A DNA stretch of 54,672 nucleotides from Pacificibacter marinus (GTDB lineage: Bacteria; Pseudomonadota; Alphaproteobacteria; Rhodobacterales; Rhodobacteraceae): assembly GCF_018860505.1 (NCBI RefSeq), contig NZ_JAHKPU010000038.1, positions 1 to 54,672 of the forward strand, given 5' to 3'. Within the stretch, counting starts at the first letter, position 1, and every line of letters begins with the position of its first letter. A program made the position numbers and the translations under genes. Positions 2,565 to 34,577 of the stretch are shown here, one piece after another. The notes beneath the pieces were generated by a model, which searched no databases, was not told where the DNA came from, and saw only the letters and a program-made list of their open reading frames with translations.

Positions 2565-2602
2565 CACTGCCCGGCAGCACATGTTTACATGTGCGAGAGG
2601 AG
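2565..2602 (+). repeat. Family A twin-hairpin insertion element, copy 2
   Basis: It interrupts the IS3 orfB between the codons for RPNQV and CADITYLP, which would otherwise join through one Trp codon. Read on the + strand: CACTGCCCGGCAG (small hairpin CTGC/GCAG), then GCACATG-TTTA-CATGTGC (7-bp stem), then a CGAGAGGAG tail. It lies in the opposite orientation to the other three family A copies relative to the host gene. The 38-nt length shifts the frame. Confidence 0.8.
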
Positions 2603-2694
2603 GACCTGATTGGGCCGATTTACCCGCAATCCACGCAGTAGATAGGGGTAAATCTTGTGACCCTTCGCGGCCTTGATCGTGCTGGGTTTCTGGT

Positions 2695-2734
2695 CCCCTC
2701 TCGTGCATTGCTACGCAATACCCTGCGGGCAGTG
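2695..2734 (-). repeat. Family A twin-hairpin insertion element, copy 1
   Basis: It interrupts the IS3 orfB between MGLMPI and QKPSTIKAAKG. On the - strand: CACTGCCCGCAGGG (CTGC/GCAG hairpin), TATTGCGTAGCAATG (ATTGC/GCAAT hairpin), then CACGAGAGGGG. The net gain is 39 nt, so the frame would be kept, but the element brings an in-frame TAG. Borders are exact because the flanking transposase codons are conserved. Confidence 0.85.
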
Positions 2735-2984
2735 GATCGGCATGAGGCCCATCAATCGCATAAGGCGCCGGATGCGCTTTTCGTTCACCAAATGCTGGTC
2801 ATTGCGCAGGTACCATGTCATCTGACGCACGCCGTAAAACAGGGTCTCAAGGAACTGCTTATCAATGACACGCATCAGATCGAGGCTCATCTCGCTCTCA
2901 CCTTTGGGCTCATAGTAAAACGACGACAGCGAGATCGACAATAACGCGCATTGCTCGCCAACAGACAGGCCCGAGATATTTGGC

Positions 2985-3290
2985 TCAACCATTTAGTGCC
3001 TCACTTTCCTGTCCACGGCTTGAGCTTTCGTGACAAAAAACATTGGCGACAGCCAACTCTCCGATCTTGGCGTGCAAATCTTTGACCTGTTCCTCGTCAA
3101 TCTCTGGCGCTTTGCGGTTGCCGCGCTCAAACACACCAGACGCACCCTCTAGTAAAGCCCGCTTCCATTGATGGATCAGTTGGGTGAACCCCAAATCGGG
3201 TCGCCAGCCAAGACACCATCCCCTCACCCTTTAGGGCTTCCAGAGCAACTTTGGCTTTAAATTCAGGGGATGTTGTTTCCGTTTCGGCAT
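2985..3290 (-). pseudogene. IS3-family transposase OrfA, frameshifted
   Basis: The start ATG at 3290 has a good RBS, but a one-base loss after MPKRKQH moves the frame. Restoring it gives [15 protein letters not shown], the usual OrfA helix-turn-helix start. A further change separates the HPT segment from [19 protein letters not shown], and another near 3040 separates IGELAVAN from FLSRKLKPWTGK. These are small decay mutations, unlike the ~40-bp insertions in orfB. Confidence 0.75.
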
Positions 3291-3421
3291 ATCTGATCTC
3301 CTTCGTGTTGAAGGTCAGCAGACTACAATTAACAGCTTACGCCAGTGTCCAGTTTTAGGGCGGTAGTTCACATCTTAGCTGAGCCGCAACCCTATCCTAA
3401 AAAGCAGGACCACTTCATCCG

Positions 3422-4183
3422 TTAGAGGTCGGGGAGTAATGCGGCTTTCCCAACTTCTTCTTTCATAATCTTGGCCAACTCACTGAGATATTTTCTTGTG
3501 AATCGATTGGAGGGGCCGGAAATTGAAATGCCGGCTTCGACCACACCAAACGGATCGACGATTGGCACCGCCACGCAATTCATTCCCTCGGCCAGTTCTT
3601 CAAAATCAAACGCCACCCCAGTGCGCTTCACAACGGTTAACTCTGCACGCATTTTATCTTTGTCGGTGCAAGTTTTGGGCGTGTTTTTTTTCAACTCATT
3701 TTCGAAATAGCTGTCGAACACGGTGTCGGGTTGAAACGCCATGATCGCCTTGCCAACGGATGTTGAATGCAGCGCGCCTCGGTTACCAATACTGAAATCG
3801 ACCGCGACAAGCTGCGTGCCTTTAGCTTTTTGAAGCAGCATCGTCTCAGGACCCATAAGTTCGGAATAGTGACAGGTCTCGCCTGTGCGCTGCGCAATCA
3901 CATTGAGCAGACGTTCGATTACAAATCGGTCCGTGCCCGCGTTCAAAACCGGTTTTGCCAAGGCGAGCATCCCGCGGCTAATGCGATATGTTTTGGTCTC
4001 GGCGTCCATTTCGACATAGCCCGCGTGTTCCATCGTGCGTAGCAACCGATAGGTCGTGACCCGTTCAATGTTTGCCATTTTGGAAATGTCTGGCGCGGTG
4101 GCCGGTGACGGCAGGTTTGCGACAGTTTCAAGCACTTGAAAGGCTTTGAGAACCGTTGAGCTTTTGTTTGAGTCGCGCGTCAT
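3422..4183 (-). CDS. IclR-family transcriptional regulator
   Basis: This 253-residue protein has an N-terminal winged helix-turn-helix (about residues 10-65, including APDISKMANIERVTTYRLLRTME) and an IclR effector domain (about 80-250, with GNRGALHSTSVGKAIMAF). Both are typical of IclR regulators, which usually bind small acids or sugars. ATG 4183 follows GGAG at a good distance; a longer start at 4228 lacks this. It is transcribed away from the aldehyde dehydrogenase/ABC transporter operon and probably controls it. Repeated GTACAA/GTACG-type sites fill the shared upstream region. Confidence 0.9.
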   Translation of the reverse strand: MTRDSNKSSTVLKAFQVLETVANLPSPATAPDISKMANIERVTTYRLLRTMEHAGYVEMDAETKTYRISRGMLALAKPVLNAGTDRFVIERLLNVIAQRTGETCHYSELMGPETMLLQKAKGTQLVAVDFSIGNRGALHSTSVGKAIMAFQPDTVFDSYFENELKKNTPKTCTDKDKMRAELTVVKRTGVAFDFEELAEGMNCVAVPIVDPFGVVEAGISISGPSNRFTRKYLSELAKIMKEEVGKAALLPDL

Positions 4184-4426
4184 GAGGCTCCAAACCGTTT
4201 GAACAATATGTGTACAAGACTGATACACAGGTTGTATCTGCTTGTCTACGTTAACGTGAAATGAAGGAAAATAGAATTTGTACGCATATAGTACGAAATT
4301 TAATTGTTAATATACAAGCATTTAAATAGATTCACTATTCATAGTGTTCATTATTTGTTGACTTAGTTTAAATGTCGAACGAACAAGGGTCGTACAATAA
4401 TTGAACGACGCAATGGGGACGACAGG
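4184..4426. promoter_or_regulatory. Divergent promoter region with repeated TTGTACG-like sites
   Basis: The 243-bp AT-rich gap between the IclR gene and the aldehyde dehydrogenase gene contains TGTACAAG (4211-4218), TTTGTACG (4277-4284), GTACGAAA (4291-4298) and CGTACAA (4391-4397). The shared core is TTGTAC(G) in either orientation. These are candidate operator half-sites for the adjacent IclR regulator; that assignment is inference from position and repetition. Confidence 0.5.
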
Positions 4427-5881
4427 GTGAATATGCTAATTTCGGGTGAATGGGTTTCGTCGACTGACGGTGCTGAAATGACAATTCACAATCCATACGA
4501 CGGGTCTGTTTTGGGTCATGTCCCTGCCGCGACTGTTGCGGATGTGGACCGCGCCGTCGGTGCGGCCGTCGATGCCAAATCTGCGATGGCGCGGATGCCA
4601 GCGCATGAGCGTGCGCGCATTCTAGAAGACGTGTCCCGCCGCATCACCGAAAATCGCGAGACGTTGGTCCAGTTGTTGAACGCTGAGAATGGCAAGACAT
4701 TCAAAGAGATCAACGGATGGGAAATCGACGCCGCAGCACGCATCATCAAAGGCTACGCCGAAGAAGCCAAGCGCCTGCACGGCGACACCATTCCGTTGAA
4801 CAGCATGAAGGGCTTGGAAAATTCACTCGCTTATACTGTCTATCAACCGCTGGGCGTTGTGGCCGCAATTGTGCCGTTCAATTATCCTGTCGAGCTGTGG
4901 TCACACAAACTGGCGGGCGGTTTGGCGGCTGGCAATTGCGTGATCACCAAAGCGCCCGAAGAATGCCCTCTGACGATGCTGGAAATCTCGCGATATTATG
5001 AAGAGGCTGGCCTGCCAAAGGGCGCGCATCAAATTCTGACAGGTCACGGCGAAGTCGTCGGCGCGCGTTTGGCTAAAATCGAAGGCGTTGATATGATCTC
5101 ACTGACAGGCAGCACCCGCGTGGGCAAACTTGTGTCTGCTGCGGCCTCGCAAACCTTGAAAAAGGTCCACTTGGAACTGGGCGGCAGCGACGCGACGATT
5201 ATTTGTGGTGATGTCGATCCCTTAATCGCAGCACAGGCGATTGTGACGGGGCGGTTTACGTCTGGAAATGGTCAGATTTGTTGCGCGGTCAAGCGTGTGT
5301 TCATCGACAAAACCATTCACCAAGCCGTCGTAGATCACGTGCTCACGCTGACACGCGGCCTTGTTGTTGGCGATCATACGGATCCTGCCACAGACGTTGG
5401 CCCACTGATTTCAACCCGTGCTGCCGACACCGTTGAACGCCAAATTCAGACCGCTGTATCTGAGGGTGCCACGTTGCTGATGGGGGGTGTGCGGACAAAT
5501 CAACAGATCACCCCAGCCGTATTTGTCGATGTGGCCGAGGACAATATTTTGTTGCGCGAAGAGGTGTTTGGGCCGGTGCTGCCCTTGGTGCCTTTCGAGA
5601 CGATCGACGAGGCGGTGACCTTGGCGAACAAAAGTGAATTTGGACTACAAGCCGCCATATTCACAAATGATTTTCGTGCCATAATGAATGCGACCATGAA
5701 GCTTGAGGTCGGAACGGTTGTGGTCAATCACCAGTCCGCCATGCGGGTGGAATGCTTGCCATTTGGCGGTCGCAAAAACAGCGGCAATGGCGTGCGCGAA
5801 GGGTTTATGGAAACTCTGAAAGACATGAGCGAAGTGAAAACTGTGATCTTTAAAGACGCCTTTGACGTCTTTGATTGCTAG
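4427..5881 (+). CDS. NAD(P)-dependent aldehyde dehydrogenase
   Basis: A 484-residue ALDH-superfamily enzyme that oxidises an aldehyde to its acid. It has the PFNYPVELW oxyanion-hole Asn region, the TGSTRVG cofactor loop, the general base Glu in HLELGGSD (about E250) and the catalytic Cys in GNGQIC (about C285). A second Cys directly follows. The start is GTG 4427 or ATG 4433; AGGG lies just before the ATG. The gene leads an operon with a CUT2 sugar transporter (12-bp gap) and faces an IclR regulator, so the substrate is probably an aldehyde formed from the imported sugar, such as a lactaldehyde or glyceraldehyde type. The exact substrate cannot be read from sequence. Confidence 0.9.
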   Translation: MNMLISGEWVSSTDGAEMTIHNPYDGSVLGHVPAATVADVDRAVGAAVDAKSAMARMPAHERARILEDVSRRITENRETLVQLLNAENGKTFKEINGWEIDAAARIIKGYAEEAKRLHGDTIPLNSMKGLENSLAYTVYQPLGVVAAIVPFNYPVELWSHKLAGGLAAGNCVITKAPEECPLTMLEISRYYEEAGLPKGAHQILTGHGEVVGARLAKIEGVDMISLTGSTRVGKLVSAAASQTLKKVHLELGGSDATIICGDVDPLIAAQAIVTGRFTSGNGQICCAVKRVFIDKTIHQAVVDHVLTLTRGLVVGDHTDPATDVGPLISTRAADTVERQIQTAVSEGATLLMGGVRTNQQITPAVFVDVAEDNILLREEVFGPVLPLVPFETIDEAVTLANKSEFGLQAAIFTNDFRAIMNATMKLEVGTVVVNHQSAMRVECLPFGGRKNSGNGVREGFMETLKDMSEVKTVIFKDAFDVFDC

Positions 5882-5893
5882 CTGGGGCCTGGT

Positions 5894-7414
5894 GTGAAGC
5901 ACATTCGTCTACATAAGATCGCCAAGGCTTTTGGCGCGACTCTGGCTCTCAAAGAGGTAAGCTTTGAGGCGCATCGCGGGCAGGTCGTGGCCATCTGTGG
6001 GGAAAATGGCGCGGGCAAATCGACCTTGATGTCGCTTTTGTCTGGTTCTCAACAGCCGACACTTGGCAAGATCGAGATCGATGATCAAAAGACGTTCATT
6101 TTGTCGCCGCATAAGGCCTTTGATCTGGGCATTCGCACGGTTTATCAAGAGCTCAGTCTGTTGCCAGAACTGTCAGTCGCGGAAAATCTGTATCTTGGCG
6201 AATGGCCGACGAAACGCGTGGCTGGCCTGATTGATTGCATCGATTGGGATAGGCTGTTTGCCGATGCTGAGGCCGATTTAGAGGCCTTGGGGATTAGTGA
6301 TATCAATGTGCGCAATGCCGTTGGGTCCTATCCCGTGGCCTTGCAGCAGATGATTGAAATCGCCAAGGCCAGCCGTGTGTCGCCTGAGGTTTTGATCCTT
6401 GATGAACCCACGGGCGTGTTGACCCAAACCGAAAGCGATGTGTTGTTTCGGCTGATCGAGACGCTCAAAAGCCGCGGCACGATTGTGTTCTATATTTCGC
6501 ATCGTCTTGAAGAAGTTCTGGACATTGCCGACACGTTTGTTGTGCTCAAAGATGGCGTTTCTGTCGATACGTTTTCACGCGAAGACGCAACCAAAGACCG
6601 CCTGATCCGCTCTATGGTTGGGCGTCCGTTGGAAGACATTTTTCCCAAACGCGGCACGGCTGGCACGGAAATCTTGCTCAGCGTTACGGGGCTGAGGGCG
6701 GCGCCGAAAGTGGCCGATGTGTCGTTCGAATTGAAACGCGGCGAGATCTTGGGATTTTGCGGTCTTGTCGGGTCTGGGCGTTCCGAAGTGATGCGCGCGA
6801 TCTTTGGCGCGGACCCTATGGATCATGGCACGATTGTGATCGATGGCGCCGCGTTTGACGCGCCAAGCCCCGCGCGCGCTATGGCCGCAGGCATTGGGTT
6901 CGTGACGGAAGAACGCAAAGTCGATGGTCTGGTTTTGGACGCGGATGTCATTGACAATGCGGGCCTTGCCTCGATGGACCAAATCGGGTGGGGGCCGTTT
7001 CTAAACCGCCCTGCGCAACGTGATATGGTGTTTCAAAAGGTGCAAGAACTCGACCTGCGCCCTCTCAACCTTGCCTATATTTTGCGCCGCATGAGCGGTG
7101 GCAATCAACAAAAAGTGGTTCTGGCCAAATGGTTGCTGATGAAGGGATTGAAAGTTTTGATCCTCGACGAGCCAACACGCGGCGTTGATATCGCGACCAA
7201 GGTCGAAATTTACAAACTCATTGCAGACTTGGCCCAGCAAGGGATCGGGATTCTATTGATCAGTTCAGAAATGCCCGAGGTTCTTGGTCTTGCGCACCGC
7301 ATTAACGTAATGCGCGACGGCAAGATCGTGGCCGAACTTGATCCGGCAACAACCTCCGAGCACGATATTTTCGTGGCCGCGGCAGATGTGGAAAGACCCA
7401 AAAATGACCTCTAA
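5894..7414 (+). CDS. CUT2 sugar ABC transporter ATP-binding protein (RbsA/MglA type)
   Basis: 506 residues with two fused nucleotide-binding domains, the hallmark of ribose/galactose-type importers. NBD1 has Walker A GENGAGKST, QQMIEIAKA in the signature region and LILDEPTGVLTQTE. NBD2 has the degenerate Walker A GLVGSGRSE, SGGNQQKVVLAKW and LILDEPTRGVDI. It starts at GTG 5894, a few bases after the dehydrogenase stop. It energises uptake with the permease at 7404-8375 and the binding protein at 8411-9370. The sugar is unknown. Confidence 0.93.
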   Translation: MKHIRLHKIAKAFGATLALKEVSFEAHRGQVVAICGENGAGKSTLMSLLSGSQQPTLGKIEIDDQKTFILSPHKAFDLGIRTVYQELSLLPELSVAENLYLGEWPTKRVAGLIDCIDWDRLFADAEADLEALGISDINVRNAVGSYPVALQQMIEIAKASRVSPEVLILDEPTGVLTQTESDVLFRLIETLKSRGTIVFYISHRLEEVLDIADTFVVLKDGVSVDTFSREDATKDRLIRSMVGRPLEDIFPKRGTAGTEILLSVTGLRAAPKVADVSFELKRGEILGFCGLVGSGRSEVMRAIFGADPMDHGTIVIDGAAFDAPSPARAMAAGIGFVTEERKVDGLVLDADVIDNAGLASMDQIGWGPFLNRPAQRDMVFQKVQELDLRPLNLAYILRRMSGGNQQKVVLAKWLLMKGLKVLILDEPTRGVDIATKVEIYKLIADLAQQGIGILLISSEMPEVLGLAHRINVMRDGKIVAELDPATTSEHDIFVAAADVERPKNDL

Positions 7415-8375
7415 GAACACCAGCCCAACGACGCAAAACTGGACCTTCAAACACATGTCCAAATCGGCCAAGACCAATCTCATTTTTTGTGTGGTTCTGG
7501 TGCTGCTGATCGTGATGACGGGGCTGACCTCGGATGTGTTTTTGACCGAACGCAATATGGTCAACGTGTCGCGCCAAATGGTGACCACCGGCTTTTTGAG
7601 CATCGGGATGTATGTTGTCATTCGCTCTGGCGGCATCGATTTGTCGGTCGGGCCAACGCTGGCGTTTGCCGGTCTTTTGGCCTCTGGCTTGCAAGGTCAG
7701 GTGCATATCAGCGTCGCCATATTAGCCGCTTTGACAGTTGGCGTAATCATCGGTTTGATCAACGGCATTTTGGTTGCCTATATGCGCCTGCAACCTTTCA
7801 TCGTCACCTTGGCTATGATGGGCGTGGTGCGCGGGGCTTTGTATATTTACAGTGAATCGCCAACCTATGCGTCTGATAAATTCTTTTTGAAAACGCTTGG
7901 AGCGGGCAAAGTGTTTGGTGTTCTGCCTGTGCCGTTTTTGATTTTCTTGGCCTGTATTCCCATTGTGTGGGTGTTCATGAATCACACCCGTGCAGGTCGC
8001 TCGATCATGGCGATTGGCATCAGCCCCGAAACTGTGCGTTTGGCAGGTGTGAACGTCAAAGCCAAAACCACGCTGGCCTATGTGATCTGCGGTTTTTTTG
8101 CGGCCCTTGCAGGTGTTCTGCTGGCGGCGCGTCTTGGAATTTCACAACCCAGCGTCGGGGCAGCATACGAGCTTGATGCGATTGCGGCCGTGGTGATCGG
8201 CGGCGGCATCTTGGGCGGCGGTGGCGGCTCGGTCGGGGGGATGTTTGGCGGGGTTATCGCGCTGGCGGTGATCGACAACATCCTGAATCTTTTCAATGTC
8301 CAGTCTTACTATCAGCAGATCGTAAAGGGCTTGATCATTCTAGTCGCCGTCTTGGTGCGCCGGAAACCATCTTAA
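7404..8375 (+). CDS. CUT2 sugar ABC transporter permease (RbsC type)
   Basis: 323 residues, strongly hydrophobic, with the BPD_transp_2 pattern: VIRSGGIDLSVGPT near residue 75, MGVVRGALYI mid-protein, and the Gly-rich AAVVIGGGILGGGGGSVGG near the end. The ATG at 7404 lies inside the last codons of the ATPase gene (11-bp overlap) and follows GGAAAG; an upstream in-frame ATG at 7338 would overlap much more. It forms the membrane channel of the 5.9-9.4 kb transporter. Confidence 0.93.
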   Translation: MTSKNTSPTTQNWTFKHMSKSAKTNLIFCVVLVLLIVMTGLTSDVFLTERNMVNVSRQMVTTGFLSIGMYVVIRSGGIDLSVGPTLAFAGLLASGLQGQVHISVAILAALTVGVIIGLINGILVAYMRLQPFIVTLAMMGVVRGALYIYSESPTYASDKFFLKTLGAGKVFGVLPVPFLIFLACIPIVWVFMNHTRAGRSIMAIGISPETVRLAGVNVKAKTTLAYVICGFFAALAGVLLAARLGISQPSVGAAYELDAIAAVVIGGGILGGGGGSVGGMFGGVIALAVIDNILNLFNVQSYYQQIVKGLIILVAVLVRRKPS

Positions 8376-8410
8376 CAATCCACGACACACTTTTGGGAGG
8401 AAACAAAGTG

Positions 8411-9370
8411 ATGAACTTCAAGCAAACCACAGGTCTTTTGACGGCGCTGGTCGCCATGTCAGCAGGGGCGGCGTCAGCAGAGGATAAAACCCTGACCATC
8501 GGCATGGCAAACTTGTTATACGGCGCGCCGTATTTCGCAGGAATGGACACAGCCGTACACCGCGAGGCGGACGCCTATAGCAACGTCGATGTGATCTCAA
8601 CAGATGCTGGATTTGACGCAGCCAAAATGGCGTCAGACATCGAGGATCTTATCGCCAAAGGTATCGACGGTCTAATCGTGAGCGCTGGCCCCACCGAGAC
8701 CATTCCATCCGCCCTGATCGCAATCGAAGAAGCGGGCATCCCAGTGGTTTTCGTCGATCGTTTGTGGCAAAACACCGACCTGTCCACGCCGTGGAATTGG
8801 GTTGGCGCGGAAAATGATGTGATGGGCAACGCGATTGGCGAACATGTCGAAGAACACTTGGGCGGTACGGGCCATGTCTTGGTGATCAAGGGCGGGCCTG
8901 CGGACAATTCCATCGGGCTTGCGCGGTCCAACGGCTTTATCGATGCGGTCAGCTCAAGTGCCGATATCGAAGTGACCATTGCACCTGGCTTCGGCAATTG
9001 GGGACTTGATGGTGGTTACACACTCATGTCCGACATGCTGGCGTTGCACGACGATCTGAATGCGGTTTTCTGTGAAAATGACGCGATGTGCCTTGGCGCA
9101 CAAAAGGCGGCCGCCGATGCGGGACGTTCTGCGGATATGGTCTTTGCTGCCTCTGATGCCAGCAAAGAAACTTTGTGGGAAATGCAGCAAGAGGGCACCA
9201 ACTTTATCGCCACGGCTGTAAACGACAGCGACGAGATTGGTCGCGTGGGCTTCAATCACTTGATGGGTCTGTTGGCTGGAGCGAAATTGCCCAATATCAC
9301 ACCGCTTTATTCTGGTTTGGTTCTCAAAGAAGAAGCGGCGAAACGCTACGATCCAAAGAAAGTCTTCTAA
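8411..9370 (+). CDS. Periplasmic sugar-binding protein (RbsB-like)
   Basis: 319 residues with a clear Sec signal peptide (LLTALVAMSAGAASAE) and a Peripla_BP_4 fold: two lobes, NLLYGAPYFAGM at the start of the mature part, GIDGLIVSAGPTE and a conserved VFVDRLW segment. ATG 8411 or GTG 8408 both follow GGAGGAAAC. This is the last gene of the aldehyde dehydrogenase operon and is followed by a terminator hairpin. The lobes resemble ribose/galactose binders; the ligand is not predictable. Confidence 0.92.
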   Translation: MNFKQTTGLLTALVAMSAGAASAEDKTLTIGMANLLYGAPYFAGMDTAVHREADAYSNVDVISTDAGFDAAKMASDIEDLIAKGIDGLIVSAGPTETIPSALIAIEEAGIPVVFVDRLWQNTDLSTPWNWVGAENDVMGNAIGEHVEEHLGGTGHVLVIKGGPADNSIGLARSNGFIDAVSSSADIEVTIAPGFGNWGLDGGYTLMSDMLALHDDLNAVFCENDAMCLGAQKAAADAGRSADMVFAASDASKETLWEMQQEGTNFIATAVNDSDEIGRVGFNHLMGLLAGAKLPNITPLYSGLVLKEEAAKRYDPKKVF

Positions 9371-9394
9371 ATCCGCTTAGGGTTTGAACGTTCG

Positions 9395-9427
9395 AAAAGC
9401 GGCGCAGGTTTTGCGTCGCTTTTTGCA
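9395..9427 (+). terminator. Intrinsic terminator after the CUT2 transporter operon
   Basis: AAAGCGGCGCA and TGCGTCGCTTT pair with one G-T position around a GGTTT loop, and the downstream arm runs into TTTTTG. It lies 25 bp after the stop of the binding-protein gene. Confidence 0.8.
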
Positions 9428-9903
9428 TTTTGTGGCAGCCCTAAAAGAAGGCCTTTCATGGGGCGTCTGAGTCTATTGATCCACGGTAGACGTTTTGCAA
9501 AATGCAACCGTTGGAATACTTGCCCCCCCCCCCACAATCGTATGATATCAGAGGGTGTTGTTTTCGCTGGTCATCGCTGTTTTGACGCAAAGATTTCAGC
9601 CATTTCAAACGATCTACAACACCGGAATTTTCCCCAATATGGGTTTTACGCACATCGATGCCGATCCGATAACCGTCGTACCAATAGGTTTTATGATTTC
9701 GAACAACCCGTGTTGGTGTGCCGCGCAGACTGGAAATAGAAGCGTTCAACAGCGATCTTTGAAGATCGTGGTAAGCTGCGTGTGCCGTTGTCGAATGTCG
9801 AATGTCGAATGTCGAATGTCGATTTATCATCGCGATATCCATATTCGTCAAAAAGCAAATGTGTTGAACACGATTTCACATAACAGCGATTTTGAAGGAA
9901 CAT
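9428..9903. other. Gene-free stretch with low-complexity tracts
   Basis: No supported gene. It holds an 11-base C run (9523-9533), a short TTTTGCAAAA palindrome near 9493 and a 7-bp tandem repeat. A - strand frame at 9456-9851 faintly recalls the C-terminal part of an IS5-type transposase (an ERF-x-F string) but is not clear enough to call. Confidence 0.5.
9790..9822. repeat. 7-bp tandem repeat (GTCGAAT)
   Basis: Four perfect copies of GTCGAAT followed by a partial fifth (GTCGA). It lies outside any supported gene, so copy-number changes would not affect a protein. Confidence 0.9.
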
Positions 9904-10728
9904 CTAACCTGTACCGCGCAGGCGCATCGTTTGGCCCAAAACGGGCACAGCAACATGAGGATGGGATGATCGTGCCAGCTCATTCTCGATCTGCGCATCA
10001 CTGATCGTGTTAAAATCGAACATGCCGAAGTGATGCGGCACCAGAATAGGGACGGTACGGGCCAGCGAGGCCGCCTCTGAAAAGGTGAAGTTTCCAGGAA
10101 TGCCATCATGCAAGCGCTGCGCATCGCGGCCATTCACCGGCAGCAGTGCAATATCTGGCGCAAAAGTTTCGACGCGGCCTTGCAGGCCCTCAAAGGGGAT
10201 ACTGTCGCCCGAATGGTACAGGCTAAACGTGGGGCATTTGATCCCGTATCCCAAATAAAAATGCGCACCTTCAGCATTGCGTTTGAGGTCTTCATGCGCG
10301 GCTGGAAAGGTCACGATAGTGAGCTCAGCCAGCGGCGATAACTCTTGATTTGAATCCACCAAGATCAAATTAGCGCGAGGGTTTATTCGCTCCCGCGCGG
10401 CATCTTCGCAAGCAGCAGGAACCATGAAGGCAAGATCAGGGAACCGATCATACAGTGGCCCAAGTGTGTCAGGATCCATATGATCAGTATGGGCATGCGT
10501 GATCAGAACCAGATCGGGTTTTGGCAGATCCTCAACTGAAATAGGCGCAGGCGCCATCCTGATATGCGGATGCTTTTTGCCCGCATATTTGCGCGCCAGA
10601 CTGTCAGACAAATATGGATCAATCAAAATCGAATATCTGCCTGTTTCAATCCAAAAGCCTGCCTGACCCAACCAGTATAGGCCTGCTTCGCCCTTTGTCG
10701 GAAACCCGTCAACGCAGTCAATGTTCAT
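9904..10728 (-). CDS. MBL-fold metallo-hydrolase (UlaG-like lactonase family)
   Basis: 274 residues with the metallo-beta-lactamase metal motif HAHTDHMD (His78, His80, Asp82, His83), a later SGD and a final HHFG. UlaG of this family hydrolyses L-ascorbate-6-phosphate lactone, so a cyclic ester of a sugar acid is a reasonable substrate class. ATG 10728 overlaps the end of the dehydrogenase gene by 11 bp, indicating translational coupling; a longer frame to 10803 would overlap further and is less likely. It is the last gene of the five-gene - strand operon starting at 13887. Confidence 0.8.
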   Translation of the reverse strand: MNIDCVDGFPTKGEAGLYWLGQAGFWIETGRYSILIDPYLSDSLARKYAGKKHPHIRMAPAPISVEDLPKPDLVLITHAHTDHMDPDTLGPLYDRFPDLAFMVPAACEDAARERINPRANLILVDSNQELSPLAELTIVTFPAAHEDLKRNAEGAHFYLGYGIKCPTFSLYHSGDSIPFEGLQGRVETFAPDIALLPVNGRDAQRLHDGIPGNFTFSEAASLARTVPILVPHHFGMFDFNTISDAQIENELARSSHPHVAVPVLGQTMRLRGTG

Positions 10729-13250: not shown

Positions 13251-13266
13251 TTGGAAGTCTCCGTGT

Positions 13267-13887: not shown

Positions 13888-13904
13888 CCGAGCCTCCGTT
13901 ATTT

Positions 13905-13919
13905 TGTAGTATTAATACA
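13905..13919. promoter_or_regulatory. Candidate RpiR/HexR-type operator, site 1
   Basis: TGTAGTATTAATACA is a 15-bp pseudo-palindrome, TGTA-N7-TACA, 18 bp upstream of the cupin isomerase ATG, with a perfect GTATTAATAC core. It resembles the TGTARTWWWAYTACA-type site I recall for HexR of the RpiR family. An RpiR-family gene closes the divergent operon at 21132. The link is inference. Confidence 0.5.
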
Positions 13920-14090
13920 TTTACTGATACTCATTATTGCACAAACTACGCAACACCTTTTTTTACACACGGCGGCACCATTGGTTCAGTAAAATGGATA
14001 TAAATTATAAAAAACAGATGATTAATAAGTTATTATTTGAGTATATCTTGAATATTTATGATCTGGAGTAATAAAACCAACCCTCAATTA
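13920..14090. other. AT-rich divergent control region
   Basis: The intergenic DNA between the cupin isomerase operon (-) and the CUT1 transporter operon (+) has no gene. Two similar 15-bp pseudo-palindromes border it at 13905 and 14091, so both promoters likely lie inside or beside it. Confidence 0.5.
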
Positions 14091-24243: not shown

Positions 24244-24266
24244 TCACGGATTTCTCAATCTGCGTC

Positions 24267-25388: not shown

Positions 25389-25392
25389 GGGA

Positions 25393-27205: not shown

Positions 27206-27255
27206 AGATCCACCTTTTGTGGGCCCGCGACCCTCAGGACGCGGCATTAGAAAAA

Positions 27256-27285
27256 TGTGCCGCCCCGAAATCACAGGGCGGCACA
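27256..27285 (-). promoter_or_regulatory. Intercistronic hairpin after the glucose-type binding-protein gene
   Basis: TGTGCCGCCC (27256-27265) and GGGCGGCACA (27276-27285) form a perfect 10-bp stem with a 10-nt loop, just behind the stop of the binding-protein gene and before the permease gene. On the - strand a TTTTTC tract follows the stem, so partial termination is plausible. Confidence 0.75.
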
Positions 27286-27301
27286 ATGGGAGGCGTGAAA
27301 T

Positions 27302-28561
27302 TTAGTTTGCCAATTCGATGGCTTCGACGAGACGCTCAACCGCCTCTTCAGAGCTCATATCCGAATTGAAATGCTCGGTGACCACTTCGATAATCGCCCC
27401 CCTATTTGCGCTAGACGTCGCGATTTCATGTGCCATTGAGGGCACAAGTTTGCCATTTTCCAAGGTCGCATCGAGATCGGTCATGGATTGCACAGCACAG
27501 GCATCAAACTGATCGCGCGCCACACCTAAACGCGCAGGAATAGCGCCCTTGTGCAGGTTGTAGGCAATCTGCACCTCTTCAGTCAGCAACAGATGTGCCA
27601 TCAATTCACGACCAGCGATTTCGTCTTCAGTAGCATTGGAATCATCAAAGAACGCAAAGCTGTCAGGGTTCATAATATAGCCGCCTTGATTTGGCGCGGC
27701 GGCACATAGAAAATCTTCTCCTGGCACAAGATCAGCGGCCATAAATTCTCCTTTGGCCCAATCACCCATGATCTGAATGGCAGCGTCGCCGTTCATCACC
27801 ATCGTCGTTGCAAGGTTCCAATCGCGACCTGAGAAGTTGTCATCGACATAGCCACGCATCCGGCGCATTTGGTCAAACACGGCAATCATCGTATCGCTGC
27901 GCAGAGTGTCTGGATCAACATCCACAAAGGCTTTGCGGAAGAAATCAGACCCGCCAAGTCCGAGAGCCACCACTTCGAAAATCGTCGCGTCTTGCCAAGG
28001 TTGACCACCATGGGCCAACGGCGTGATGCCAGCAGCCATAAGTTTATCGGCTAGTGCGTTAAATTCATCCCAAGTAGTTGGCACTGTGCCGTCGACTTTG
28101 GCCAAAAGATCAGGGTTGATCCACATCCAATCAATCCGGTGAATGTCAGTCGGAACGGCGGAAAACACCCCGTCCACCTTAACGATTTCGGCCAAAAGCG
28201 GTGGTAGAATTTCGTTCCAGTTGTCGCGTTCCGCAACGCCTTCGAGGTTGGCCAGCGCGCCCGCATTGGCCCATTCGGTCACAACAGGACCCTTCAAAAT
28301 AGTCATCCCAGGAGGATCACCCGCCAAAACACGCGAGCGCAAAACAGTGTTCATCGCATCGCCGCCACCGCCTGATACGGGTTGATCAACCCAAGTGCCG
28401 CCAGCCGCTTTAAATGCATCTGCAAAGGTGTTGATCGCAAGCGACTCGCCGCCCGACGTCCAATAGTGCAGAACCTCAATTGACGGGTCCGCCGTGGCCG
28501 CACCCGTTGCCATAGCCGAAATCAACGCCGTACTCGCTAGGATATTTCTATAGATCTTCAT
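27302..28561 (-). CDS. Glucose/mannose-type sugar-binding protein (GtsA-like)
   Basis: 419 residues with signal peptide (NILASTALISAMATGAATA) and the SBP_bac_1 pattern typical of glucose/mannose binders: VLHYWTSGGESLAINTF at the mature start, GGGGDAMNTVLRSRVLAGDPP and YNLHKGAIPAR near the end. ATG 28561 follows AGGGAGGGACACC. It is the first gene of the transporter operon. The closest characterised class I recognise is the GtsA/glucose group; the ligand is inferred. Confidence 0.9.
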   Translation of the reverse strand: MKIYRNILASTALISAMATGAATADPSIEVLHYWTSGGESLAINTFADAFKAAGGTWVDQPVSGGGGDAMNTVLRSRVLAGDPPGMTILKGPVVTEWANAGALANLEGVAERDNWNEILPPLLAEIVKVDGVFSAVPTDIHRIDWMWINPDLLAKVDGTVPTTWDEFNALADKLMAAGITPLAHGGQPWQDATIFEVVALGLGGSDFFRKAFVDVDPDTLRSDTMIAVFDQMRRMRGYVDDNFSGRDWNLATTMVMNGDAAIQIMGDWAKGEFMAADLVPGEDFLCAAAPNQGGYIMNPDSFAFFDDSNATEDEIAGRELMAHLLLTEEVQIAYNLHKGAIPARLGVARDQFDACAVQSMTDLDATLENGKLVPSMAHEIATSSANRGAIIEVVTEHFNSDMSSEEAVERLVEAIELAN

Positions 28562-28747
28562 GGTGTCCCTCCCTAAAATTGTAAAGCGTCTCAACCCGCC
28601 TCCTCGCAGGCCTAAACGCTGACCATTAACTTGGCGCAAACCAGTCCGCGCGACAGTTGTAGATTGGTTTCAGGGTTGTAATTTTCTGATACAAACCACC
28701 CAACATATCCTCGAAAACGGCATCAAACCGCGTGCTATTGATCGGTT

Positions 28748-29731
28748 TTATTTGATGATCGGCGTTTTGCTGCGATCAAAGGTGACGGCCACGCCAAACA
28801 CGATCATCGCGCCCAAAAGCGCCTGTTGGAAATATTGGTCCACACCGACGACGTTCAATCCGTTGTCAAGCAGGCTGAGAAACAAAGCCCCGAACAATAC
28901 GTTCACAATCCCGCCTGATCCGCCGGTCAAAGCCGTACCGCCGACCACAACTGCTGCGATCGAGTTCAGCACATAGGGCGTGCCGACAACCGGATCGCCA
29001 CCGTAGCGGATCGATGATATGATAATGCCAACAATGGCCGCGCAGCCACCTGAGATCATGAACGCAATGCAGCGGTTGCGGACGATATCCGTGCCCGACA
29101 TCCAAGACATGCGGATATTGCTGCCGATATAGTAAATGTTGCGCCCAGTTATGGAAAATCGCAAGAAGGCCCCCAACGTCAAAAAGGTCGCGACGCCAAT
29201 GTAAAAGCTGTTCGACATACCTAAAATCTTGCCGTCGATCAGTTCAAAATAGCCATAATCGCTTGGCGACGCGCTGATGGATCGAGGCGAGACCAAATAG
29301 GCCAGACTGGTGATAATCCCCCCCGTGCCGAGAGTGGCGATGAACGACGGGATTTTTACAATGGTCAAAATCAACCCGTTGATTAGCCCAAACATCACCC
29401 CTGCAAACAGGCAAATCGGAAAGGCGAAATACCCGACTTCGCCAACCAACAGCACAAATAAGACAGAGACAAACGAGATGACGCCCCCAACCGAAAGATC
29501 AATGCCGCCAATCAAAATCACAAACATCTGACCCAATGCCACGATCATCAAAATCGCGCCAAAGCTCAGGATGGTATTGATGTTATAGGCCGACAAAAAT
29601 GTACTGTTGGCCAGCGCCAGCACTGTGCCCAAAACAATAATCATGAATATGGTCAAATGCACGGGCTGAAGGCGTACTGGCAGCATGGCGAAGACACGGC
29701 GACCAAGGCCCATATGAGTGGTGTTTTTCAA
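28748..29731 (-). CDS. CUT2 sugar ABC transporter permease (RbsC type), last gene of operon
   Basis: About 327 residues, BPD_transp_2 family, with LIGGIDLSVGGVISF, TLGTGGIITSLAYL and AAVVVGGTALTGGSGG. A TTG at 29731 is the preferred start because AGGGAGAAGTAAC precedes it; ATG 29713 is the alternative. It is the second of two different permeases in this operon, so the channel is probably a heterodimer, as in galactofuranose-type (YtfT/YjfF) importers. Confidence 0.9.
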   Translation of the reverse strand: MKNTTHMGLGRRVFAMLPVRLQPVHLTIFMIIVLGTVLALANSTFLSAYNINTILSFGAILMIVALGQMFVILIGGIDLSVGGVISFVSVLFVLLVGEVGYFAFPICLFAGVMFGLINGLILTIVKIPSFIATLGTGGIITSLAYLVSPRSISASPSDYGYFELIDGKILGMSNSFYIGVATFLTLGAFLRFSITGRNIYYIGSNIRMSWMSGTDIVRNRCIAFMISGGCAAIVGIIISSIRYGGDPVVGTPYVLNSIAAVVVGGTALTGGSGGIVNVLFGALFLSLLDNGLNVVGVDQYFQQALLGAMIVFGVAVTFDRSKTPIIK

Positions 29732-29764
29732 GTTACTTCTCCCTATGATATCACTCAATCGTCG

Positions 29765-31303
29765 TTAAACGATCAACTTGATAAGGTCTGTTGGTGTGGG
29801 TTTATGCTCCGGTGCTGCGTCCAAAACGTCGACGACTTTGCGCTCGCTCATGACCACCATTTTATTGGCCAGCCCTGTGTCTTCTTCCAAGGTGTCGCAC
29901 ATTATGATCATGGCGATCCCCGCTTTGGAAAACTTGCGAATAAGACGGTACACTTCGTCTTTCGCGCCGATATCGATGCCGCGAGTGGGGTGGTCCAAGA
30001 TCAAAACTTTGACGTTTGAACTGAGCCATTTTGACAGAATGATCTTTTGTTGATTGCCGCCCGATAGACCGGAACAGGCTGCATGAATTGTCGGCGTTTT
30101 CACCAGACATTCGGCCACCCATTCATGCGCATGTTCGATTTCTTTGCGCCGATGGATCGCCCCTGCGGTCTTCAGCCGGTCAAGCACGAGATGGTTCATA
30201 TTGTCCATCACACTCATATTCAAAGCCAGCCCTTCTTCGCGACGCTCAACTGGCACATGTCCGATTCCAGCGCGCACTGCGGCCTGTGGCGACCCTTTGG
30301 CGGGCGTGACGCCATCGACCCAAACCGTACCTGTGTCGTGGCTTTTTGTACCGGCGATACAGGCACAAAGCTCTTCTTTGCCGGACCCGATCAAACCCAC
30401 AAGGCTGACAATTTCGCCCGCACGCAATTCAAAGCTAAGCGGCTCAAAAGCACCTCTTAGGCCCAGATCTTCGACTTTGAACACCACATCGCCGTCAGGC
30501 GTATGTTGATCTGTTTCCCTGAACCGATCACCTGAAAATTCGCTGCCCACCAAAAGCCGTTCGATATCGGCCACTTGCATCCCTGCGGCAGGAATTTGAG
30601 TGACATTATCGCCGTCTTTCAGCACATGCAGACGATCACAATTTTCCAAAACTTCTTGCAAGCGATGGGAAATAAAGATGATTGACATCCGTTGTTTCAA
30701 CTCTTGCAGAATTTCAAATAACGTGTCCCGTTCTCCGTCATTCAACACCGTTGTTGGCTCATCCAAAATAACAATCGGGTTTTGTGCTCCATATTGTTCT
30801 GCCAGCCAAAGCACCCGCGCAATCTCGATCATTTGTTTGGCCGCAGGCGCAAATTGAGACACAGGTTCCGTGACATCGATATCCAGTTTCATCGTCGCCA
30901 TCAGCCGCCGCGCCTCTTGAACCATCGCGCGCCGCGAAATCACACCGCGTTGCATGAAATCGCGCTCGTGGCACAGAAACAGATTTTCCATCACCGACAG
31001 GTTCGGAAGCAAAGACCCCTCTTGAAACACCCCGCCGATGCCTTTTTTGATGGCATCAACCGGGCCAAGCAATTTGGTCGCTTGGCCATTCAACTGAATT
31101 TCACCGTCATCAGGCTGGTGTATCCCGATCATGATTTTGGTCATCACCGATTTGCCCGCGCCGTTTTCACCCAAAAGTCCCAAAATTTCGTTTGGACGTA
31201 CTTCAAAGTCGATATTTCTCAAGGCGGAAACACCCGGAAAGCGTTTTCCAATACCGATCATTTTCAAAACAGGCTGTGCGCCAAACGTTGTTTGAACAGT
31301 CAT
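29765..31303 (-). CDS. CUT2 sugar ABC transporter ATP-binding protein with altered second Walker B
   Basis: 512 residues with two fused NBDs. NBD1: GENGAGKSV, QMIEIARVLW, VILDEPTTVLND. NBD2: GLIGSGKEEL, LSGGNQQKIILSKWL and VLILDHPTRGID, where His stands in place of the catalytic Glu of the usual LDEP. One ATP site may therefore be inactive or regulatory. ATG 31303 follows AGGGGACAAGC. It works with the permeases on either side and the binding protein at 32480-33526. Confidence 0.92.
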   Translation of the reverse strand: MTVQTTFGAQPVLKMIGIGKRFPGVSALRNIDFEVRPNEILGLLGENGAGKSVMTKIMIGIHQPDDGEIQLNGQATKLLGPVDAIKKGIGGVFQEGSLLPNLSVMENLFLCHERDFMQRGVISRRAMVQEARRLMATMKLDIDVTEPVSQFAPAAKQMIEIARVLWLAEQYGAQNPIVILDEPTTVLNDGERDTLFEILQELKQRMSIIFISHRLQEVLENCDRLHVLKDGDNVTQIPAAGMQVADIERLLVGSEFSGDRFRETDQHTPDGDVVFKVEDLGLRGAFEPLSFELRAGEIVSLVGLIGSGKEELCACIAGTKSHDTGTVWVDGVTPAKGSPQAAVRAGIGHVPVERREEGLALNMSVMDNMNHLVLDRLKTAGAIHRRKEIEHAHEWVAECLVKTPTIHAACSGLSGGNQQKIILSKWLSSNVKVLILDHPTRGIDIGAKDEVYRLIRKFSKAGIAMIIMCDTLEEDTGLANKMVVMSERKVVDVLDAAPEHKPTPTDLIKLIV

Positions 31304-31313
31304 GCTTGTCCCC

Positions 31314-32291
31314 TCATTTTATAAATCCGAGCTTTTTACGATCGATCGTCAGAGCCACAGCCACGATCAACACCACCCCATTCACCGCAGTTTGCGCGTA
31401 AGGGTTCACCGCCATCAAAACCATTCCGTTGTTCAAAACCGCCAGAATAAGCGCGCCAAGAAAGGCATTTTTCGCGCCGCCAACACCGCCCGTCAGGGCG
31501 ACCCCACCGACAACAACTGCGGTGATGGTTGGAAACAACAGATTGAGCCCTGCCCGTGACGTGGCCGACCCCATCCGCGTCACCAACAGCAACGCACCAA
31601 TGCCATACAGACAGCCCGCAAGGGTGAACGCGAGGGTCTTCACCCGATCAACATTTACGCCCAACTGTTTGGCCAAGGCCTCGTCTCCGCCAATGGCATA
31701 AAGATGTCGCCCAAAGGGAGTGCGATCTTGTAAAAACTGCACAAAGGTCGTCACGAAAACCGCAATCAACACGACATTTGCAATGCCAAAAGGGGCGGCG
31801 TGGATAAAATTTTGAATCCGGTCATCTTGTAGGCTGACGATCTGGGATTTGTTGATGTAGACCGCGACCCCATACAAAACAAAACTCATCCCTAGAGTGG
31901 TGATGAACGACGGTATGCGCAGTTTCGTGTGCGTCAGCCCCGTCAATAAACCCGCAAGACCGCCTACCGCAATCGTGATCGGAATGATCCACAGACCAAC
32001 ATCATAAGTTGTATATTTGTTTGCCATCAGCGTACCGGTGAAAACCGCACATAGGGCCACCACGCCTTGCAACGACAGATCAATGCCGCCAATGACGATC
32101 GTCATATGCACCCCAATCGCCAGGATCGCGGGGATCGCGGTGAGGCTGAGAATGACTTGGATATTGGACATCGTCAGGCTTTTTCCAGCCGTGCCGATGA
32201 AAAAGATCGTCGTAATCAAGGCGAGCGAAATGAGTTGGGTGGCAACGCCTGAGCGGCGTATCCAACGAAGACTTGAGTGTAGGGCCTGCAT
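31314..32291 (-). CDS. CUT2 sugar ABC transporter permease (RbsC type), first of two
   Basis: 325 residues with VIGGIDLSLQGVVALC, TLGMSFVLYGVAVYI and AVVVGGVALTGGVGGAKNAFLGALI. ATG 32291 follows GAGGAAGAAGCC; an upstream frame to 32432 extends through the intercistronic hairpin region and is rejected. It is clearly different in sequence from the permease at 28748-29731, so this is not a recent duplication. Confidence 0.92.
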   Translation of the reverse strand: MQALHSSLRWIRRSGVATQLISLALITTIFFIGTAGKSLTMSNIQVILSLTAIPAILAIGVHMTIVIGGIDLSLQGVVALCAVFTGTLMANKYTTYDVGLWIIPITIAVGGLAGLLTGLTHTKLRIPSFITTLGMSFVLYGVAVYINKSQIVSLQDDRIQNFIHAAPFGIANVVLIAVFVTTFVQFLQDRTPFGRHLYAIGGDEALAKQLGVNVDRVKTLAFTLAGCLYGIGALLLVTRMGSATSRAGLNLLFPTITAVVVGGVALTGGVGGAKNAFLGALILAVLNNGMVLMAVNPYAQTAVNGVVLIVAVALTIDRKKLGFIK

Positions 32292-32431
32292 GGCTTCTTC
32301 CTCTTTGAAATAAATGCGCGTGTTGGTTTTGCGCTGCGATTTATGCTCGCAGCCATCGATGAGGCTTGCCCTGCCGCGTTGTGACGGGTTTGTGTCGCGA
32401 AAAATACGGATGGCTTTTGAAAGACTATACA

Positions 32432-32457
32432 AGCGGGCGCCGTCACCGACGCCCGCT
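32432..32457 (-). promoter_or_regulatory. Intercistronic hairpin after the CUT2 binding-protein gene
   Basis: AGCGGGCG (32432-32439) and CGCCCGCT (32450-32457) form an 8-bp GC-rich stem with a 10-nt loop, 22 bp past the binding-protein stop. No T run follows on the - strand. This fits differential expression of the binding protein over the downstream permease and ATPase. Confidence 0.7.
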
Positions 32458-32479
32458 CAAAGGTGACTGTCTCTCTGCG

Positions 32480-33526
32480 CTATTCAGCAGCAGAAACCCA
32501 TTGTGCATAATAGTCTGTGAGATCGTATTCTGGCATCGTGTTGAACACTTCTTCGACAAAGGTTTCCACATTATCGGCGTTCACCTGAGTGCCCGAAATC
32601 ATGAAAGCACGGTGCTCAGCTGGCGTAGTAGACGGATCCAGATCGCCATTTTTTGCAGCCAGTGCCATGGTCAGGCCAAGCTGAGATTGATACCGAGAGT
32701 CCATGAATTCCGTCGAGGACAGCGTGCCATCAATGATCGCATCAAACGCATCTGGAATACCGTCGGTGCCAGATACTTTCACAGCACCTGCATCGCTAGT
32801 TTCTTTGAGCGCAGCAATAGCACCAATCGCCATATTGTCGTTGGCAGTCCAAATACCATCCACATCAGGATGAGCCGCAAGCAACTGTTTGGTCACCTCA
32901 TAGGCGCGGTTTGTGTCCCAATCCGCAGCTTCCCATTGCAGCAATTCCACACCGGGGTTCTCAGCCAAAGCTTTTTGCAGACCTTTAAAACGACCAATGG
33001 CGGCATTGTTCGATAGCATACCTTGCACGGCAATGACGGAGCCCTCATTAGGCGTCTCGAATGTTTTGAACAGCTCGATGGCATTGTAATAACCTTGCTG
33101 TTCCGCATCAAAGGTAATGTGTGCAACCCAGTGCGGATAGCTAGAGGGGCTGACTTCGTCTGGCTTGTTCCACCAGTTCACCCAATAAACGCCGGCATCC
33201 TCAAGGATCTTGGCAATCGGCACCACATCAGGGCCCTCATTGGGATCAATGTTCACAACCATATTGCCGCCAGTCCGTGCAATTTGCGCGCGCAGATCGG
33301 CGAATTGTTTCTGGCTGTTACCTTCGCTGCTCAGCACACTCACCGGCAAGCCAAGACGTTCGCCAAGCGCATGTGCGCCTGCCGCGTAATTGGCGTGATA
33401 CGGGTTATCAAGACCGCGGATCATAACGACAAGCGTCGTCTCATCATCGGCAAATGCGGGTGTCAACAAAGACACGCAGAGCCCAAGCCCCATCGCGAGA
33501 CCGACTATAGTTTTCTTGAATTTCAT
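32480..33526 (-). CDS. Periplasmic sugar-binding protein (Peripla_BP_4)
   Basis: 348 residues with signal peptide (TIVGLAMGLGLCVSLLTPAFA) and two lobes: VVMIRGLDNPYHANYAAGAHAL, VVNIDPNEGPDVVPIAKILEDAGVYWVNWWN, VDGIWTANDNMAIGAIAALKE. The aromatic YWVNWWN strand is likely to line the sugar site. ATG 33526 follows AAGGAGGAGATCC. It is the first gene of a four-gene importer operon lacking a catabolic enzyme, so the sugar remains open. Confidence 0.9.
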   Translation of the reverse strand: MKFKKTIVGLAMGLGLCVSLLTPAFADDETTLVVMIRGLDNPYHANYAAGAHALGERLGLPVSVLSSEGNSQKQFADLRAQIARTGGNMVVNIDPNEGPDVVPIAKILEDAGVYWVNWWNKPDEVSPSSYPHWVAHITFDAEQQGYYNAIELFKTFETPNEGSVIAVQGMLSNNAAIGRFKGLQKALAENPGVELLQWEAADWDTNRAYEVTKQLLAAHPDVDGIWTANDNMAIGAIAALKETSDAGAVKVSGTDGIPDAFDAIIDGTLSSTEFMDSRYQSQLGLTMALAAKNGDLDPSTTPAEHRAFMISGTQVNADNVETFVEEVFNTMPEYDLTDYYAQWVSAAE

Positions 33527-33926
33527 CTTGGATCTCCTCCTTAGAATGACGTCGTGCTAACCGCGTTCTCCTCCCGCAGCAGCTGACACCATATGGTCGC
33601 CTAGATCGTCCCAGATCCGCACTAAGTTATTGGTTTCAAATTCGTAAATTAGAGATACATGTCCGAGTTAACGACACGCGACCACCAAACAGGATAGAAA
33701 ATTTTGTGTTTATAATTAATAGATTACGATCACATCACTGATTTTCTACGCGACAGATAAATGGACATTAATCAACAAAGATTCTGTTAAGCAATTATAT
33801 TTAAACACAAAACCTTGCACCATAGCGCCATGCAACAACAGCGACGTGCGAATGTATTAAATTGATACAATTGCGTCGCAGGAAAGGTCTGCTTTGAGAA
33901 CAGCATCAAAACGCAACATAAAAGAA
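33527..33926. promoter_or_regulatory. AT-rich upstream region with an 11-bp inverted pair
   Basis: 400 bp without a gene between the binding-protein gene and the IS element. TTTTGTGTTTA (33702-33712) and its exact reverse complement TAAACACAAAA (33802-33812) lie 89 bp apart. They could be two operator sites for an unlinked regulator of the importer. The rest is AT-rich and shows nothing else I can name. Confidence 0.45.
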
Positions 33927-33987
33927 TGACCTGAGCCCCAAGTCTCCTCCAGCTTTGCGCGGAGGCCTTGTGGTTAAATCTTTGGCG

Positions 33988-34277
33988 TTAGGCAGCCATC
34001 TTGTCCATCGCTTTTCTCTGCAAAAATTCCATCGGTGTCAGGTTGCCCAATGCTGAATGTGGTCTGCGCCAGTTGTAATCCTCCTGCCATTCTTCAAGCG
34101 TTTTGCGGGCATCGCGCAATGTGCCAAACAGCGCTTCGTTGAGACATTCGTCTCGAAGCTTGCCGTTGAAGCGCATCATAAAGCCGTTCTGCTGGGGCTT
34201 TCCAGGCGCGATGTAATGCCAATCGATACCCGTTTCCTGAACCCATTTGAGGATCGCCATACTGGTGAACTCAGTGC
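33988..34277 (-). pseudogene. IS3-family transposase OrfB, C-terminal remnant
   Basis: The surviving part reads [12 protein letters not shown], then [12 protein letters not shown] and the terminal [18 protein letters not shown] of an rve integrase domain. The first part of the gene is reduced to the ATGGTGACGCC start codons overlapping the end of orfA. The deletion junction is occupied by a family A element (34278-34318). Confidence 0.8.
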
Positions 34278-34318
34278 CCCTCTCGGCAGATTGCTGTGCA
34301 ATAGCCTGCCGGGCAATG
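34278..34318 (-). repeat. Family A twin-hairpin insertion element, copy 4 (at a deletion junction)
   Basis: On the - strand: CATTGCCCGGCAGG, CTATTGCACAGCAATCTG (ATTGC/GCAAT hairpin with ACA loop), then CCGAGAGGG. The left flank is the very start of orfB and the right flank is GTEFTS from far inside orfB, so the element lies exactly where several hundred bases of the IS are missing. Confidence 0.78.
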
Positions 34319-34362
34319 AACGGGCGTCACCATTTTTTTGAATTGATGTCTCTCAGCATGGC

Positions 34363-34403
34363 GCGCGCCCATTGTCCTCGGACCAATGGCGGACAAGGCC
34401 ACG
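34363..34403 (-). repeat. Family B ~40-bp insertion element, copy 2
   Basis: On the - strand it contains GGCCTTGTCCGCCATTGG and then TCCGAGGACAATGGGCG. CCATT and AATGG pair, and GTCC/GGAC can extend the stem inside. The flanking codons QMLE and AMLRDINSKKW of orfA fix the borders. It matches the copy at 2419-2458 over nearly its full length although the host position differs. Confidence 0.8.
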
Positions 34404-34538
34404 CTCCAACATCTGCTCCGCCAACAACTTCTTCAGTTTGCCGTTCTCATCTTCCAAAGCCCGCAACCGCTTCGCATCCGACGGTTCCATGCCGCCATAC
34501 TTCGATTTATATTTATAGAACGTCGTCGAACTGATCCC

Positions 34539-34577
34539 TTCTCGGGACATTGCTGCACAATACCCTGCCAGCAGTGC
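34539..34577 (-). repeat. Family A twin-hairpin insertion element, copy 3 (in frame)
   Basis: On the - strand: GCACTGCTGGCAGGG (CTGC/GCAG), TATTGTGCAGCAATG (ATTGT/GCAAT with one G-U), then TCCCGAGAA. It is exactly 39 nt, so orfA stays open and gains ALLAGYCAAMSRE between CRRH and GISSTTFYK. Confidence 0.82.

Follow-up and report, generated by a model that had tools for sequence, protein, structure and literature searches.

Family A, a dispersed hairpin of about 41 nucleotides found mostly in transposase genes of marine Rhodobacterales

The 54,672-nucleotide (nt) contig NZ_JAHKPU010000038.1 of Pacificibacter marinus (assembly GCF_018860505.1; the whole stretch is referred to here as the window) carries four copies of a DNA hairpin of about 41 nt, here called family A, in two decayed insertion sequences (ISs). 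We found family A dispersed across 26 genomes, with exact ends, a covarying structure and a bias towards transposase genes, relative to which its orientation is random. On balance, we consider it somewhat probable that family A is a non-autonomous hairpin, similar to repetitive extragenic palindromic (REP) sequences, that is moved in trans and inserts exactly after the motif YYRTC, mostly in transposases. A family of tiny mobile hairpins that has precise ends and a target motif, whose internal loop is conserved and which is strongly biased towards transposase genes, with Y1 (PF01797) missing in four of the five high-copy genomes tested, prompts the questions of what enzyme moves a 41-nt hairpin, for what reason it hits transposase genes and whether broken ISs are of benefit to the host.

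Insertion is exact and leaves no target duplication, as judged from 13 insertions that could be compared with element-free relatives. In the window, copy 1 (2565..2601, + strand, 37 nt, antisense to the interrupted IS3 orfB) and copy 2 (2696..2734, − strand, 39 nt, sense to orfB and with an in-frame TAG inside) are clean additions of 37 and 39 nt to an IS3 that is empty at both sites in Sulfitobacter sp. D7. Copy 4 (34538..34576, − strand, 39 nt), which is sense, in frame and open within an open reading frame (ORF) at 34353-34667, is a clean addition of 39 nt relative to two plasmid relatives and to a fragment of the same type of IS elsewhere in its own genome. Copy 3 (34278..34318, − strand, 41 nt) is not a simple insertion; it lies at a junction at which around 0.5 kb of orfB is missing (an estimate from alignment to IS3 relatives), a loss that would follow from recombination between two elements. 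A preliminary description of the window had located all four copies, with ends that differ by at most one base from those given here, and had each copy splitting a transposase frame, which is correct for copies 1, 2 and 4 as clean insertions and has to be modified for copy 3.

The 11 insertions measured singly are 37, 39, 39, 38, 40, 38, 38, 40, 41, 41 and 42 nt in net length. They include four elements in one IS3 of genome G032 (+38, +40, +38 and +38 relative to an element-free relative), one in a second G032 IS (+40, measured by hand) and two in genome G010 (+41 each); two elements in an IS5 of Dinoroseobacter shibae were measured as a sum (+82). On plasmid p4SUD7 of Sulfitobacter sp. D7 (L362:1150-1640), family A lies in frame within a transposase that is annotated as a full-length IS3, and the insertion of 42 nt is one base longer than the element. 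Across 140 sites, the five bases before the element are Y (80%), Y (77%), R (93%), T (61%) and C (66%) or G (19%). This YYRTC motif is weak, and on the other side the first base after the outer stem is G in 63%, with no preference thereafter. The sequence YATCCAYTG/C resembles the nick sites of MOBP relaxases (YATCCTG/Y), a resemblance that we regard as a lead only.

Family A is abundant. A blastn search of the second window IS against its own genome returned many isolated matches of around 40 bp at both element positions. A covariance model built from the four window copies found 30 places in that genome (E ≤ 10), and the model R2, trained on 26 own-genome copies that include all four in the window, found 33 at the same threshold, 31 of them below E = 0.002; window copies 1–4 score 36.5, 49.3, 61.3 and 63.2 bits in this whole-genome search. 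The preliminary description had counted four places, a large undercount, and had held that a genome with no further copies would speak against mobility; the covariance-model search that it proposed instead revealed copies at 33 places of the own genome and in genomes of the same family. As R2 was trained on the window copies, its independent support comes from matches in other genomes. R2 matches 26 of 61 genomes (own included), comprising 26 of 37 of the same family and none of 24 from other families. In a class-wide set of 142 genomes, two match at E ≤ 1e-4: the own genome and one of another family. Among the 80 of 120 stretches listed from a pattern search, contigs with names are mostly Rhodobacterales; R2 matches an unclassified alphaproteobacterial metagenome-assembled genome (MAG), a Rhodospirillales MAG, Labrenzia and Cohaesibacter, and has no match in nine contigs of named non-alphaproteobacterial groups. 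Copy 3 matches 85 records of a plasmid collection, and the genera named among the matches listed are marine Rhodobacterales. Family A also accounts for IS remains in Roseobacter plasmids that are chimaeric or lack annotation, and it is carried by a model organism, D. shibae. In total, we located at least 196 copies (from fetched regions, some of them weak) in 26 genomes, at 140 distinct sites; the latter is a low count, as merging tolerated offsets of a few nt and counted copy 4 and a G032 insertion at such an offset as one site.

Each element is a single hairpin of around 41 nt, with a nominal range of 36–45 nt that assumes a 3-bp outer stem (copy 4 is then scored as 40 rather than 39 nt). 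A 5-nt head, CAYTG, is followed by the outer stem CCC/GGG (3 bp), a 4 × 4 internal loop GGCA/GAGA, an inner stem of 8 bp, in which most copies carry a bulged T, and a terminal loop of around 3 nt. The twin hairpin of the preliminary description was dropped in favour of the outer stem and internal loop on the basis of pairing and both-side changes: in its first hairpin, CTGCC/GGCAG, 80% of cells are paired and a single pair shows changes on both sides, whereas the outer stem, which encloses its second hairpin, is 95.7% paired and has both-side changes at all three pairs. In an unfitted MAFFT alignment of 26 own-genome copies (25 distinct rows), the outer and inner stems together are paired in 92.2% of cells, with 34 both-side changes compared with 8.0 when shuffled, and the structure collapses when slid by one column. 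An alignment of 87 distinct copies, which leans toward the model to which it was fitted, contains 175 both-side changes compared with 39.8 in shuffles.

The head also covaries. Among 259 non-redundant elements (241 distinct, 33–46 nt), the bases at −5 and −1 are C-G in 223 and T-A in 19; they are paired in 242 elements compared with 206 when shuffled, and none of 2000 shuffles was as high. In a linear strand these bases could form only a lone pair over three bases, but if the ends were joined the pair would extend the outer stem. The full four-pair end joint, three pairs of which are the outer stem already described, occurs in 186 of the 241 distinct elements (shuffled mean, 6). Elements contain fewer stop codons over six frames than dinucleotide shuffles (0.89 versus 1.57 per element), and 101 of 241 have no stop in any of the six frames (200 rounds of shuffling gave a mean of 47 and at most 61). 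We do not take this openness as a sign of tolerance within ORFs; the elements are related, and it may be one ancestral property.

Most sites adjoin transposase genes. With 15 queries chosen independently of the sites, transposase homology was found no more than 60 nt from 89 of the 140 sites, 44 in sense and 45 in antisense. A wider library of 26 queries raises this to 103 sites (49 sense and 54 antisense), 46 of which have homology on both sides; as 11 of its queries come from sequence flanking elements and were identified as transposases by eye, the increase is partly circular, and two annotated transposase queries are partly out of frame. A second set of 103 elements, in which redundancy was kept and viral contigs were included, was compared, using the 26-query library, with random positions at the same loci more than 1.5 kb from any element: 57 of the 103 elements but only 163 of 8419 random positions fall within 60 nt of a transposase, an enrichment of around 29-fold. 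Several of the other 46 elements resemble, by eye, transposases missing from the library. Pfam searches of single fragments added eight sites with transposase domains, some of them scoring under the curated cut-off, and also revealed RelE, XdhC, IclR and a weak peptidoglycan-binding match as other neighbours; no match was returned for three fragments. At L072:1501-1547 (G022), L230:1469 and L269:1343, elements apparently occupy the same place of a RelE-type toxin–antitoxin gene, an assignment made by Pfam for G022 only and by eye for the other two.

The bias could have a passive origin. Ordinary repeats of the REP or Rickettsia palindromic element (RPE) type might insert anywhere and be seen in ISs because these are dispensable and multiplied, an explanation that we consider possible but rather unlikely. 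Selection purges insertions from working host genes, and ISs multiply with their inserts, as in G032 and D. shibae; a few sites do lie beside non-transposase genes, and the Sulfitobacter D7 insertion and copy 4 stay in frame, similar to the elements of Rickettsia. However, copying along with an IS does not account for 140 different positions. The excess of transposase-adjacent elements was measured against random positions of the same loci, and random insertion would be expected to leave many intergenic copies.

That family A moved independently of its host ISs, as the preliminary description proposed, is borne out by the 140 sites, which span many IS families and both strands, and by a near-identical IS pair within genome G010, one member of which carries two clean insertions that the other lacks (both are partly masked). 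Some copies did travel with the IS: 23 of the 140 sites are occupied by two or more copies, and four sites common to six G032 IS copies were plainly inherited. At other shared sites the stems are unrelated. G000 C5:515701 and G015 C51:2915 mark the same nucleotide of diverged ISs, and the site of copy 1 holds elements with unrelated stems in G000, G007 and G021. We read these cases as elements that entered preferred places independently of one another; one element may instead have replaced another, or the stems may have diverged by descent with rapid compensatory change. The preliminary description had held that intact IS3 relatives carrying these segments at the same positions would refute mobility, and same-site elements do occur in other genomes and genera. 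Given that the sites checked have intact, element-free relatives and that stems are unrelated at some shared sites, this finding does not refute mobility, and the shared sites point to preferred places, shared descent or both.

Plasmid pDSHI04 of D. shibae DFL12 (L210, L215) carries three IS5-family copies, 99.9–100% identical and with two elements each, and an IS5 paralogue without either element. In G000, two related ISs (C1:6400-8200 and C16:41200-42800; L052 and L055) contain, besides family A, a 14-nt part of such an element and several further inserts that look like hairpins but belong to other sequence families. Elements at C1:8001 and C16:42610 in these loci have one shared and one unrelated flank; their ISs are chimaeric, and recombination of one element copy with another may have produced them.

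The clean, duplication-free insertions, together with the short motif on their 5′ side and the conservation of a folded strand, suggest single-strand recombination of the HUH or tyrosine recombinase type. The moving form is probably a folded single strand, which a recombinase or HUH-type enzyme supplied in trans would excise and insert; recombination between copies would then give rise to chimaeric and deleted ISs, such as the host of copy 3. Since the −5/−1 covariation extends the outer stem only when the ends are joined (GGG/C-AYT-G-CCC, the slash marking the joint), a dumbbell circle would be a natural intermediate. A bolder version is speculative and, in our view, improbable: that a self-complementary 41-nt dumbbell circle, its ends abutting in one helix and becoming joined upon excision, is itself the mobile unit, is inserted by a single-strand enzyme, and is steered to transposases, silencing ISs across marine Rhodobacterales. 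If true, it would be among the smallest mobile elements known.

Several points weigh against movement of the hairpin by an enzyme in trans. A T-A subfamily that spread may alone account for the covariation of the head; sites that genera have in common could date from old insertions that descended with their IS; and no circle or head-to-tail joint was found among the loci examined. The asymmetry of G.T to A.C is 91:27 in fitted alignments, 14:3 in the unfitted one and 4:3 when one pair is removed; we rejected it as a hint to the active strand because it is too weak and a single pair carries it. Finally, domain searches of 20 genomes identified no mobilising enzyme. Y1 was found in 2 of the 20, being present in G026, partly so in G004, and absent from G000, G010, G021 and G032 (draft genomes may miss the gene); its absence from these four leaves mobilisation by a REP-associated tyrosine transposase (RAYT) unsupported. 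A reverse transcriptase was also rejected, with RVT_1 in 9 of 20 genomes, including G026 and G032, and absent from G000, G010 and G021.

A host-side brake, whereby elements target and break transposase genes, appears very unlikely. The strong bias and the reuse of one nucleotide by elements with unrelated stems would fit it, as would the rarity of lengths divisible by three, 34 among 241 nominal lengths and 3 among the 11 single measurements. However, length is shared by kinship among the elements and the count is therefore not independent evidence, some insertions are in frame, broken ISs still multiply, and no guide or effector was identified.

The interrupted ISs bear on whether transposases work despite their elements. 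Omitting the inserts leaves OrfB open throughout in the G032 IS and in G000 C1, with one stop in orfA of G000 C16. Between G032 and G010b, both of which carry an element at a shared site, 71 of 203 codons differ synonymously and 18 non-synonymously, indicating purifying selection; if the element is older than their split, this would argue that the gene functioned despite it. Similarly, a site common to several genera could go back to an insertion that a working IS acquired long ago, and element-laden ISs have multiplied to six copies in G032 and three in D. shibae, although IS copies can be moved in trans. By contrast, among the six G032 copies, with four elements each, 12 changes are non-synonymous and 4 synonymous, falling 6/5/5 on the codon positions, so that this multi-copy host IS has been under no recent protein constraint; the 3′ parts of G000 C1 and C16 differ by 6 non-synonymous and 2 synonymous codon changes. 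Because the G032 copies drift without protein constraint and elements lie at random in sense or antisense to the transposase (44/45 and 49/54), we rejected removal at the RNA level and consider it highly improbable that family A is a near-neutral mini-intron or ribosomal bypass, removed or skipped after transcription to leave a working transposase. We conclude that interrupted ISs are mostly dead and are moved in trans; some insertions that keep the frame, namely copy 4 and that of Sulfitobacter D7, may be tolerated.

Among known systems, IS200/IS605 elements and RAYT-mobilised REPs share with family A the lack of a target duplication, a short 5′ target motif and a conserved hairpin, and they are a candidate for how it works. 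Family A differs from RAYT-mobilised REPs in the Y1 distribution and in the absence of a GTAG tag at the hairpin foot; at the 140 sites the outer stem is preceded by CAYTG and, before that, by YYRTC. Miniature inverted-repeat transposable elements (MITEs) are likewise tiny, non-autonomous mobile DNA, but family A shows no target-site duplication, a MITE hallmark, at the measured empty sites, and terminal inverted repeats of a parent IS were not recognised. Compared with integron attC sites, which involve R and L boxes, a cassette and an integron integrase, its outer stem is only 3–4 bp. RPEs insert in frame. PMC2635572 describes them as palindromic selfish insertions inside protein-coding genes, a habit that family A shares, in frame for a few copies. 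Unlike RPEs, most measured family A insertions break the frame (only copy 4 and Sulfitobacter D7 leave it open), hosts are mostly transposases and orientation is random.

The nearest published kind by description is the CGTC-tagged REP. According to PMC3733652, CGTC- and GTAG-tagged REPs are small, palindromic, high in copy number and found in genes too, as is family A; CGTC REPs are commonest in alphaproteobacteria and have no dedicated transposase, again as in family A, and RPE-4 and RPE-6 are equated with them. That paper gives a terminal CGTC, a stem of 8–9 bp, a loop of 4–5, a tail CCA and head-to-head dimers, hallmarks that family A does not show: it has the CAYTG head, outer stem, 4 × 4 internal loop, terminal loop of around 3 nt and a 3′ end flush with the stem, and is mostly single and mostly in transposase genes. 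At 9 of 140 sites the head follows a CGTC, which there is part of the target sequence. Among the loci examined, eight non-identical neighbour pairs lie within 40 nt of each other (four in the same orientation, two convergent and two divergent), without a predominance of head-to-head dimers. The likeness to REPs and RPEs drawn in the preliminary description is fair for a small palindromic repeat inside genes, with differences from CGTC REPs in tag, stem, loop, tail and dimer habit and from RPEs in frame habit; its observation is confirmed and its interpretation as a whole partly supported. We file family A among small palindromic mobile repeats, as neither REP nor RPE. Open-licence literature searches returned no description of it, and loci L102 and L053 had no Rfam match up to E = 1.

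Both host ISs in the window are decayed members of the IS3 family on the − strand, with approximate ends. That of copies 1 and 2 (2310..3340) aligns with a region of Sulfitobacter sp. D7 that is annotated as IS3 transposase; that of copies 3 and 4 (33985..34720), aligned to IS3 relatives, has an internal deletion and Pfam matches to HTH_Tnp_1 and rve_3. A second hairpin insert, with the core CCATTGRTCCGAGGACAATGG, splits both ISs at approximately 2419-2460 and 34363-34404, the former adding about 38 nt relative to Sulfitobacter D7. At the Rfam gathering score, the only match in the window is a flavin mononucleotide (FMN) riboswitch, which adjoins the first IS (2033-2178, − strand; 117.6 bits).

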